64,000 bases of DNA from Nocardia lijiangensis NBRC 108240 (GTDB taxonomy: Bacteria; Actinomycetota; Actinomycetes; Mycobacteriales; Mycobacteriaceae), in assembly GCF_001613045.1 (NCBI RefSeq), contig NZ_BDBP01000013.1:1-64000 (forward strand), written 5' to 3'. Of this stretch, positions 27,096-29,691 are shown one piece after another. The notes below the pieces were generated by a model that saw only the letters and a program-made list of their open reading frames with translations, searched no databases and had not been told where the DNA came from. The position numbers and the translations under genes are program-made. Position 1 is the first letter of the stretch; each line of letters opens with the position of its first letter.

Positions 27096-28574
27096 ATGAT
27101 CATCGATCCCAGTGGGCGCGGGCCCACGATGCGGCAGTTGCTGATCGCGGGCGTGTGCGGACTGATCGTCTTCGCGCTGGTGCTCGGCTTCCTCATGGCG
27201 CGCTACACCGGCTACTTCGTGCCCAAGGTGAACGTCGTCGCCAGTCTGACCACCACCGGTGACGGCCTGCCGTCGGAAGCCGACGTGAAGTTCCGCGGCG
27301 TCCTGGTCGGCGTGGTGGACGAGGTCGAGGTCGCGGCGAAGGGCGAACTGCAGAAGGTGCAGATCGAACTGAAGCCGGAGTACGCGGGCGACATCCCGTC
27401 CAACGTCACCGCGCGCGTGGTGCCGAGCAACCTGTTCGCCGTCACCTCCATCGAACTCGTCTTCAACGGGCCGGCCGACACCTACCTGAAGGAAGGGTCG
27501 GTCATCGAGGAGGACCGCAGCAAGGGCACGATCGCGCTGCAGGACACGCTGACCACGGTCCGCAACATCCTGGACAAGATCGACCCGGTGCAGTTCGGCC
27601 GCGTCGTCGGCACCCTCTCGCAGGCACTGGACGGCAGCGGCCGGATGCCGGGCTCGACCATCGAGCGGCTGGACCGCTGGGTGCTGGCCGTCGACGAGTC
27701 CATTCCGGATCTCGGCGTGCTGCTCGACGACTTCTCCGGCTCGTTCCGCGCGCTGAACCAGTCGGCGCCCGAATTGCTCGACGTGCTCGGCAGCTCGGTG
27801 CAGACCGCGAGCACCATCGCCGATCGCCGCGAGGAGCTCGTCGCGCTGATCACCGGGACCAGCGCCACGGTGGACACGGTGAACGCCCTGTTCGCCCGCA
27901 ACCCCGATGTCGGCAAGCAGGTCACCGTCGGCACCGCCGACATGTTCGGCGCGCTGACGGCCGACCCCGACGCGATCACCAGGACACTGCTGAACCTGAG
28001 CGAGTCGACCAGGGCGATGAGTACCACCTTCCACTGGGGTCCGCAGCAGCAACAGGTCTGGAACGCCGGTATCACGCTGACGCCGTACACCCCGTACACC
28101 GTCGCGGACTGCCCGCACTACGGCGAGATGGCAGGTCCGAGCTGCGCCACCGCTCCCGAGGTGAACGAACTGCCGCCGCTGCCGGAGAACCTGCGGCCGC
28201 GCGCGCTGGAATCGGCCGCCGGACTGCCGCCGGTGGTGCCGACGCCCGGTCTGCCGCTGATCCCCGGCGTCACCATGCCGGACCCGGGTCGCATCGTCTC
28301 CGACCTCCAGGAGAACGCGCAGCAGCCGTTTGCTGGCACGCCACTCGAGGGACTGTTCCCGGTGCTCCCCGGTCTGCCCGGCCTGATGCCGCCTGCCCCC
28401 GCGCCCGCGGCGGCTCCGGCGGACGCCCCCGCGGCCCGGCCGATCTCCTACCAGGGTGACGCCGCGATCGAGCAGCTGCTCGGCCGCAAGCCGACCACCG
28501 CGGAGTACCTGCTGCTGAGCTCGATCCTGAAGGGCGGAACGATGCAAGTGTCGGAGAGGGGTGCTGTCCGATGA
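27096..28574 (+). CDS. mceA: MceA, substrate-binding/tunnel subunit
   Basis: A 492-residue Mce-family protein. An N-terminal transmembrane helix (about 15-38) precedes the MCE/MlaD domain (about 45-125, VKFRGVLVGVVDEVEV), a helical central region and a Pro-rich C-terminal tail (about 360-460). It is predicted to contribute to the heteromeric periplasmic tunnel that moves sterols or fatty acids across the cell wall. Its stop overlaps by ATGA a 26-codon mini-ORF that bridges to mceB, the only large gap between the mce subunit genes. Confidence 0.94.
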   Translation: MIIDPSGRGPTMRQLLIAGVCGLIVFALVLGFLMARYTGYFVPKVNVVASLTTTGDGLPSEADVKFRGVLVGVVDEVEVAAKGELQKVQIELKPEYAGDIPSNVTARVVPSNLFAVTSIELVFNGPADTYLKEGSVIEEDRSKGTIALQDTLTTVRNILDKIDPVQFGRVVGTLSQALDGSGRMPGSTIERLDRWVLAVDESIPDLGVLLDDFSGSFRALNQSAPELLDVLGSSVQTASTIADRREELVALITGTSATVDTVNALFARNPDVGKQVTVGTADMFGALTADPDAITRTLLNLSESTRAMSTTFHWGPQQQQVWNAGITLTPYTPYTVADCPHYGEMAGPSCATAPEVNELPPLPENLRPRALESAAGLPPVVPTPGLPLIPGVTMPDPGRIVSDLQENAQQPFAGTPLEGLFPVLPGLPGLMPPAPAPAAAPADAPAARPISYQGDAAIEQLLGRKPTTAEYLLLSSILKGGTMQVSERGAVR

Positions 28575-28651
28575 GCGAACGCAGTGAGCGAATCATGTGC
28601 CAGCGTGCAATGCACATGCCGGAGCCGAGCGCTAGCGAGGCGCAGGCATGA
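28571..28651 (+). CDS. 26-residue coupling mini-ORF (MIRU-like element) between mceA and mceB
   Basis: The 77-bp insert between the mceA and mceB ATGA junctions holds an open frame of 26 codons. It starts MSERSERIMCQR and ends PEPSASEAQA. Its ATG overlaps the mceA stop and its TGA overlaps the mceB start, so ribosomes could pass through without a break. The DNA carries a 7-bp inverted repeat CATGTGC/GCACATG (28594-28618) and GAGCG-rich ends. This matches the published layout of mycobacterial MIRUs (short repeated elements with an ORF fitted into ATGA overlaps). Whether a peptide is made is unknown. Confidence 0.65.
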   Translation: MSERSERIMCQRAMHMPEPSASEAQA

Positions 28652-29691
28652 GCATTCGTAAGCCGCTGATCGGGTTCGGACTCTTCGCGATCGTCTCGAT
28701 CCTGGTGACGGTGGTCGTCTGGAACACGCTCGCGCGCGTGGTCCCCGGCGACACCAAGACCTACTCCGCGACGTTCACCGATGTGCTCGGCCTCCGCGAA
28801 GGCGACGACGTGCGCATGGCCGGTGTCCGGGTCGGCAAGGTCGAGAAGATCGAGCTGGCTCGCGACGATCGGACCAAGGAGTCGGTCGCGAACGTGTCGT
28901 TCATCGTCGAGAGCGACCAGACCCTCTTCGACGACACCAAGGCGCTGGTCCGCTACCAGAACCTGATCGGCCAGCGCTACGTGGCGCTGGCCCCCGGCGA
29001 GGCGTCCAACCCCGCGCCGCTGAAGAACAACGCGTCGATTCCGCTGGAGCGGACCGAGCCGTCGTTCGACGTGTCGGGTCTGCTCAACGGATTCCAGCCG
29101 CTGTTCCAGGTACTGCAGCCCGAGCAGGTGAACCGCCTCTCGGAGACGTTCATCCAGGCGCTGCAGGGCGACAACGTCTCGCTGAGCTCGTTCATCGTGC
29201 AGGCCGCCCAGCTGGCCACCGATTTCCAGCGCCGCGACGCGATCCTGTCCGACGTGATCACCAACCTGTCCGGTGTGATGGCGGGCTTGGCCAAACGAGG
29301 TGATGAATTGGAGACCCTGGTGACGCAAACCCGGGCCTTGATCGGCGGACTCTACGAGCAGGGCCAGACCCTGCTGCATTCCACCGAGCAGATCGCGAGC
29401 GCCACCACGTCGCTGGTCGGCATGGTCGGCAACATCCAGCCCAAGCTGCAGGCCGCGCAGAACTCCACGAGCGCCGCACTCACGCTGCTGCTGGACAACG
29501 GCGCCAAGCTGGACCAGGCCGCGATCGACGTGCCGAACATCCTCTCGGCGGCGGGCAGGCACACCTCCGAGGGCGGCTACGCCAACGCCTACCTGTGCGG
29601 CCTCGACATCTCGCTGTACGGTGTGCTCTTCCCCCGCGGTCTGTTCTCGCAGATCGGCGGCAACGAGCACTCGGCGGTGTGCCGCCCATGA
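28648..29691 (+). CDS. mceB: MceB, Mce-family subunit
   Basis: A 347-residue Mce protein with an N-terminal membrane helix (about 8-30), the MCE domain (about 38-118; VLGLREGDDVRMAGVRVGKVEKIEL) and a long helical region. The C-terminal YLCGLDISLYGVLFPRGL is typical of MceB proteins. It is the second component of the Mce tunnel. The start is ATG 28648, overlapping the stop of the mini-ORF; its own stop overlaps the mceC ATG (ATGA). Confidence 0.94.
   Translation: MSIRKPLIGFGLFAIVSILVTVVVWNTLARVVPGDTKTYSATFTDVLGLREGDDVRMAGVRVGKVEKIELARDDRTKESVANVSFIVESDQTLFDDTKALVRYQNLIGQRYVALAPGEASNPAPLKNNASIPLERTEPSFDVSGLLNGFQPLFQVLQPEQVNRLSETFIQALQGDNVSLSSFIVQAAQLATDFQRRDAILSDVITNLSGVMAGLAKRGDELETLVTQTRALIGGLYEQGQTLLHSTEQIASATTSLVGMVGNIQPKLQAAQNSTSAALTLLLDNGAKLDQAAIDVPNILSAAGRHTSEGGYANAYLCGLDISLYGVLFPRGLFSQIGGNEHSAVCRP

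Follow-up and report, generated by a model that had tools for sequence, protein, structure and literature searches.

A dispersed repeat of Nocardia that appears to insert at start codons and to relay translation through a mini-ORF

Introduction

In the window analysed here, i.e., the whole stretch of 64,000 nucleotides from Nocardia lijiangensis NBRC 108240, two neighbouring Mce-family genes on the plus strand, 27096..28574 (Pfam Mce4_CUP1 and MlaD) and 28648..29691 (Pfam MlaD and Mce4_CUP1), are linked by a short open frame, which raises the question of whether this link is an ordinary part of the operon or a repeat that has been inserted into it. The operon is assigned to the mce type, since both neighbours contain Mce4_CUP1 and MlaD and two MlaE permeases lie upstream of the pair (Pfam). 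From the sequence, the TGA at 28572-28574 is read as the stop of the upstream ORF 27096-28574, lying within an ATGA (28571..28574, plus strand) that holds both this stop and the start of a 26-codon mini-ORF (28571..28651, plus strand); in most copies an RTGA stands at this position. The mini-ORF runs from the ATG at 28571 to the TGA at 28649-28651, and the latter is part of a second ATGA (28648..28651, plus strand), whose ATG at 28648 opens the downstream ORF 28648-29691. The first-pass annotation had described exactly such a 26-codon frame, tied by ATGA overlaps to an Mce stop and an Mce start, and the sequence bears this out. It had also placed a gap of 77 bp between the genes, a length that is correct for the repeat unit counted from ATGA to ATGA (28571..28647, plus strand) and incorrect for the stop-to-start gap, which is 73 bp. 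A frame of 466 aa on the minus strand (window 28270-29670) spans the element together with portions of the two mce genes; long antisense frames are common in GC-rich genomes. An Rfam search has given no match up to E 1 within 28400-28800.

A Dispersed Family in the Genome and the Genus

At E ≤ 10, BLAST with 101 bp around the feature has returned 53 own-genome matches, among them the window copy itself; for 50 of the 53, E is below 4e-4, and the best other copies reach 92% identity with E values from 8e-29 to 1e-27. The 25-bp left end, with three mismatches allowed, has one match in the window and none in 100 shuffles, and the element is far above chance expectation. A profile search of the own-genome stretches fetched has yielded 57 copies in 39 arrays (26 with a single unit, nine with two, three with three and one with four), in which tandem neighbours have one RTGA in common. 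The search for further host copies, which had been proposed as a check, has therefore revealed a short unit dispersed over tens of loci, as is characteristic for the mycobacterial repeats known as MIRUs, and the spacer is by no means unique. The same holds for the proposed search of other Nocardia genomes, 116 of 148 of which contain a match at E ≤ 1e-3, with copy numbers that are lower bounds as few candidates per genome have been scored. An exact 38-base pattern of the element has been found in 17 stretches of the genome collection, all of them Nocardia records. A plasmid search with the element has given only enterobacterial matches of 26-31 bases (E 0.2-0.8), a plasmid search with the 65-bp type described below and a phage search with a two-unit array have given no match, and carriage by plasmids or phages has been rejected on these results. 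Among the matches listed from the open-licence literature, no description of such repeats in Nocardia has been found.

Filled and Empty Sites

Orthologous mce junctions have been compared in 30 genomes, the window included, chosen as the best among the 147 genomes that gave a match. Empty junctions with a single ATGA, located where the 3' ATGA of the element stands in the window, have been observed in 27 of the 30, and only three are filled, namely the window, L069 (genome G066) and L070 (genome G041). With the window excluded, 27 of 29 junctions are without the element, so the comparison that had been suggested for this junction speaks against a spacer conserved in all orthologous operons. 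The earlier claim of an insertion that keeps reading continuity agrees with these empty junctions and with the intact frame of the mini-ORF, and by this comparison the window copy is an insertion into the mce junction. The L070 copy is decayed, but its junction is filled; directly 5' of ATGAGCATCAAGAAG, part of its interior is duplicated and its left end is shortened. As L069 and L070 have AAATGA in common, a single older insertion followed by losses is possible for these two. In a tree of the mce flanks (2009 columns), the sister of the window (L071) is empty, and at least three state changes are needed, a count that is blind to gain versus loss.

The pattern extends to other loci. The 20 of the 38 other own arrays that have clean ends have been compared with three relatives (G083, G084 and G113), and 53 of these 60 comparisons have been resolved, 31 with an insert and 22 without the element. 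A clean zero-gap join at RTGA is seen in 16 of the 22 element-free comparisons (L031, L034, L036, L044, L046, L056, L058, L059), and the flank alignments are shifted in the remaining six (L037 twice, L038 twice, L044 in G113, L047 in G084). Gaps of 65, 79, 80 and 81 in filled rows of G083 (L037, L047, L038, L059) are likewise offsets and have been reread as 77, 77, 77 and 80, respectively. Because of their decay, L154 and L157, two of the 31 inserts, escape the profile. Units per orthologous site vary from 1 to 8 among relatives, which is tandem variation of the MIRU type. Strong copy-number polymorphism is found at the site of L055, with three units in the own genome, five in G083, eight in G084 and two in G113; the G084 orthologue (L147, G084:C67:5020-5920) contains a 539-bp insert scored as 8 units.

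The Target Site and the Reading Frame

A 3' RTGA is present in 34 of the 39 own arrays, and in 30 of these 34 a coding-like frame begins there, judged by ad hoc thresholds. An upstream gene overlaps the array, as in the window, in only 10 of the 39 (ad hoc criteria), a generality of start-codon targeting that the first-pass annotation had missed. Among the 29 non-overlap arrays, 14 have an SD-like motif 5' of the 5' start, a count obtained with ad hoc thresholds and no control; such motifs lie a few bases 5' of some sites, e.g., GGAGGAGAGACT before L058 and AAGGAGGTCCGCGGTC before L065. The clean joins at RTGA together with these nearby motifs point to a start codon followed by A as the target, and we conclude from the sequences that start codons of the form (A/G)TGA are targeted in general. 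A strict 4-bp target duplication is not proven, since the two ends differ in L047 and L058, with GTGA on the 5' side and ATGA on the 3' side.

Like MIRUs, the element sits at the start codon and has an internal ORF that overlaps the gene by ATGA (-4 nt). Among the 75 distinct arrays whose 3' end is complete, 69 contain a mini-ORF or a chain of mini-ORFs that ends on the recreated downstream start; this count is generous, because several start candidates have been tried per array and arrays lacking a complete 3' end have been excluded. The six arrays that are not relayed are L049, L054 and L060 (67 bp) in the own genome and L121, L141 (internal stop) and L161 (78 bp) elsewhere, whereas the own array L034 rescues a 78-bp unit by the fusion of two units into one frame of 52 codons. 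Single inserts of relatives with lengths other than 77 or 80 bp measure 59, 62, 68 (five times), 71 and 107 bp, and all nine are 2 mod 3; these lengths have been taken from the flanks, and some of the inserts have a common ancestry, so that they do not represent nine independent events. The profile has no match to two of the nine, the 107-bp insert and one of 68 bp.

Hairpins and Internal Signals

Three hairpins can be placed on the window copy. The 5' hairpin (28571..28593, plus strand) consists of Watson-Crick doublets alternating with GA/GA mismatches and displays covariation (helix 1), the central variable hairpin (28605..28615, plus strand) reads GTGC-AAT-GCAC, and the 3' hairpin (28615..28650, plus strand) encloses the downstream start codon and an SD-like GAGG (28637..28640, plus strand), located 7 nt 5' of the downstream ATG; of 98 distinct copies, 86 have this motif at the corresponding model position. 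In folding energy, the window copy does not stand out (z -0.94 as RNA, 0.05 as DNA), and since this measure is not significant, we rely on covariation.

In 54 chosen full-length copies, 94.6% of the cells of the three hairpins are paired vs 87.8% after shuffling, and 74 double changes contrast with 19 in shuffles, counts that have to be read with a structure derived partly from the same alignment and with shuffles that ignore relatedness. Two of five structure measures are not clearly above the shuffles, namely double-change pairs (47/500) and further pair types (113/500). In the variable centre, the longest stem has a mean of 4.7 bp vs 3.8 bp in shuffles, the highest shuffle mean being 4.1. 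At both ends, the first base of the RTGA, which is also the start codon, covaries with an internal hairpin partner: A-U in 40 copies, G-C in 13 and other in 1 at the 5' end, U-A in 42, C-G in 10 and other in 2 at the 3' end. Most GTG starts consequently have a matching internal change. The SD-like GAGG and the hairpins, including both start codons, are thus conserved, with compensatory changes.

Distribution Beyond the Genus

According to the first-pass annotation, a MIRU here would extend the element type beyond mycobacteria, and with Nocardia as host genus the design does lie outside them. A covariance model has matched 54 of 401 genomes of the family at E ≤ 1e-3, 46 in the genus and eight in four other genus labels; the single g9 match has no RTGA ends, leaving three other genera of the family. 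In a sample of the order, matches have been obtained in 129 of 298 genomes, which belong to 31 of the 76 genus labels and to eight family labels; some labels are represented by one weak match only. Copies have been read in four of seven other families (f12, f14, f15 and f16).

For the other genera, 35 matches at 30 loci have been collected, of which 26 loci have been used (L207, L211, L213 and L215 were left out); for the other families, 26 matches in regions picked among the best have been taken, 25 of them for the frame, with the weakest left out. The mini-ORF ends on the next RTGA in 23 of 26 copies in other genera, if any RTGA in the second half is accepted (22 of 26 otherwise), and in 24 of 25 copies in other families, a corrected value that is 17 of 25 if a later RTGA in ATGAGTGA is taken. 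A one-base deletion in silico lowers the relay to 2/26 and 9/25, respectively, and in our opinion the latter value is high because ATGAGTGA supplies another frame. Relayed units in these genera and families measure 56, 65, 68, 74, 77 and 80 bp, which is no separate evidence, as a relayed copy is necessarily 2 mod 3.

In the 26 other-family copies, 94.8% of the cells are paired vs 84.9% in shuffles, with 40 double changes vs 10, in an alignment that was fitted to the model and favours the structure. Every cell of the 5' helix is paired, and the 3' start-codon base is unpaired in 5 of the 26 copies. For the initial base of RTGA, the pairs counted are A-U 21, G-C 5 and other 0 at the 5' end and U-A 15, C-G 6 and other 5 at the 3' end. 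Several local variants have been noticed. In seven f15 genomes (L244, L246, L247, L261, L262, L263, L266) the 14 bases to the left of the unit are identical, which suggests a single insertion that has been kept, and one copy of this set is 6 bp shorter and still in frame. Genus label g13 (G159; within L187-L216) has 15 matches of an 80-bp type whose 3' stem letters change in pairs, e.g., CATGC/GCATG, CATCC/GGATG and CATGG/CCATG. Several genomes of genus label g29 (L189-L209), a very large genus that, judged by its size (396 genomes drawn), is probably Mycobacterium, contain a 65-bp version (ATGAGCGACGCTTGCGAGCG...) at start codons. PE proteins (PF00934) have been of no help as a marker for this genus, as all nine genomes tested have a match.

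Proposed Mechanism and Alternatives

Taken together, we consider it likely that the feature in the window is one copy of a dispersed, non-autonomous, start-codon-targeting mobile repeat that preserves translation by a mini-ORF relay. The repeat would insert in one orientation at (A/G)TGA start codons and leave this tetranucleotide at both ends. The length of the unit is usually 3n+2 bases and its frame is open, and in this way the former start codon becomes that of the mini-ORF, which ribosomes might enter from the ribosome-binding site of the gene itself or, as suggested for the window copy, from an overlapping upstream gene. The TGA of the mini-ORF overlaps the recreated start codon, and ribosomes reaching the end of the mini-ORF would unfold the 3' hairpin, in which GAGG and this start codon lie, so that re-initiation on the downstream gene, aided by GAGG, could follow; translational coupling across the window element is one of the steps that we infer here. 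Re-initiation at the overlapping start would imply that an insertion costs little expression and is perhaps near-neutral, tandem duplication would leave the relay intact, and the spread would resemble transposition into RTGA.

The most serious competitor of this relay, in our judgement unlikely, assumes that the hairpins are kept for DNA mobility, i.e., that a single-strand transposase in the style of REP/IS200-605 reads the hairpins and the RTGA foot by base pairing, while selection eliminates those insertions at start codons that are out of frame. Such a recognition would account for the covariation of the first base of each flanking RTGA with its internal partner in the 54 copies and in the other families, as well as for the retained target tetranucleotide, but mobility alone would not need the conserved SD-like GAGG. 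Moreover, a search for the Y1 transposase family (PF01797, E ≤ 1e-5) has found no match in the own genome, despite its lineage-specific insertions, and none in 121 of 148 genus genomes, the other 27 having one. A Y1 transposase as mobiliser has been rejected on the missing match in the own genome, as far as the Y1 family is concerned.

Rather doubtful is a role of the array in tuning expression, in which each unit would add a termination/re-initiation step, an RNA-processing hairpin or a promoter and the copy number would set the output. The 1 to 8 units at the same site among relatives would suit such a role, and according to passages of PMC4213456 the MIRU-containing senX3-regX3 spacer of M. 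tuberculosis drives separate regX3 expression. A more far-reaching scheme, to which we give equally little credence, regards the elements as ancient, order-wide mobile cassettes in which guide bases of the hairpins pair with the target RTG and choose the site, with MIRUs as one branch and insertion leading to a coupled two-step initiation that is tunable by copy number. That recombination or gene conversion among units already present, instead of a transposition-like process, has distributed the copies is very improbable: such exchange would agree with tandem arrays of near-identical adjoining units, but not with single copies found at unrelated genes for which the relatives have an exactly empty start region. 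Finally, the intact frame and a plausible SD would also suit a conserved leader ORF that is an ordinary part of the mce operon, a reading that is scarcely credible and is refuted by the empty orthologous sites, the nearest junction among them, and by the presence of the element at many unrelated sites.

Significance

Repeats that are used for strain typing in tuberculosis and have been described as restricted to two mycobacterial lineages resemble elements read here in Nocardia, in three further genera of its family and in four further families of the order, and the hairpins of these elements covary around the start codons. The question of a harmless insertion is directly testable, as many filled and empty natural sites, predicted base pairs and the 3n+2 length rule are available. 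The copy number at Nocardia sites could cause strain-to-strain differences in expression and could be a typing marker for Nocardia.

Comparison with Known Systems

REP sequences with RAYT and elements derived from IS200-IS605 resemble the present repeats in being short and dispersed, in having hairpins and in retaining a tetranucleotide; in contrast, the present repeats sit on start codons with an open frame, in a genome without a PF01797 match. MITEs are short, non-autonomous and responsible for lineage-specific insertions, which equally applies here, but a terminal inverted repeat pairing both ends is not seen in the predicted structure, in which each end has its own local hairpin.

The closest likeness is to the MIRUs of Mycobacterium tuberculosis and M. 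leprae (Supply et al., 1997, as cited in PMC12548453 and PMC3914561). A 2025 review describes MIRUs as apparently mobile repeats that are inserted at start codons with an ORF coupled at -4 nt, an arrangement by which insertion is likely to have minimal impact (PMC12548453), so the logic of insertion and coupling is in print already for mycobacteria. A size of 46-101 bp and 41 loci in H37Rv are given in a part of PMC3914561, and units of 77 bp and 53 bp, both 2 mod 3, for the senX3-regX3 MIRUs in a part of PMC4213456. The latter paper restricts MIRUs to M. leprae and the M. tuberculosis complex, whereas the present element occurs in Nocardia, with look-alikes in other genera and families. Covarying hairpins have been demonstrated here for the Nocardia-type elements. 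A published M. tuberculosis primer has matched none of 396 genomes searched, and the likeness is drawn from design features and not from a MIRU sequence. The MIRU-like design claimed by the first-pass annotation, a short repeat with an ORF tied in by ATGA at both ends, has been found as described, and tandem copies and the kept reading continuity add to it: short repeats with tandem copy-number variation, thought to be mobile, placed at start codons and coupled by an internal ORF at -4 nt, which suggests that the element works like the MIRUs of mycobacteria.
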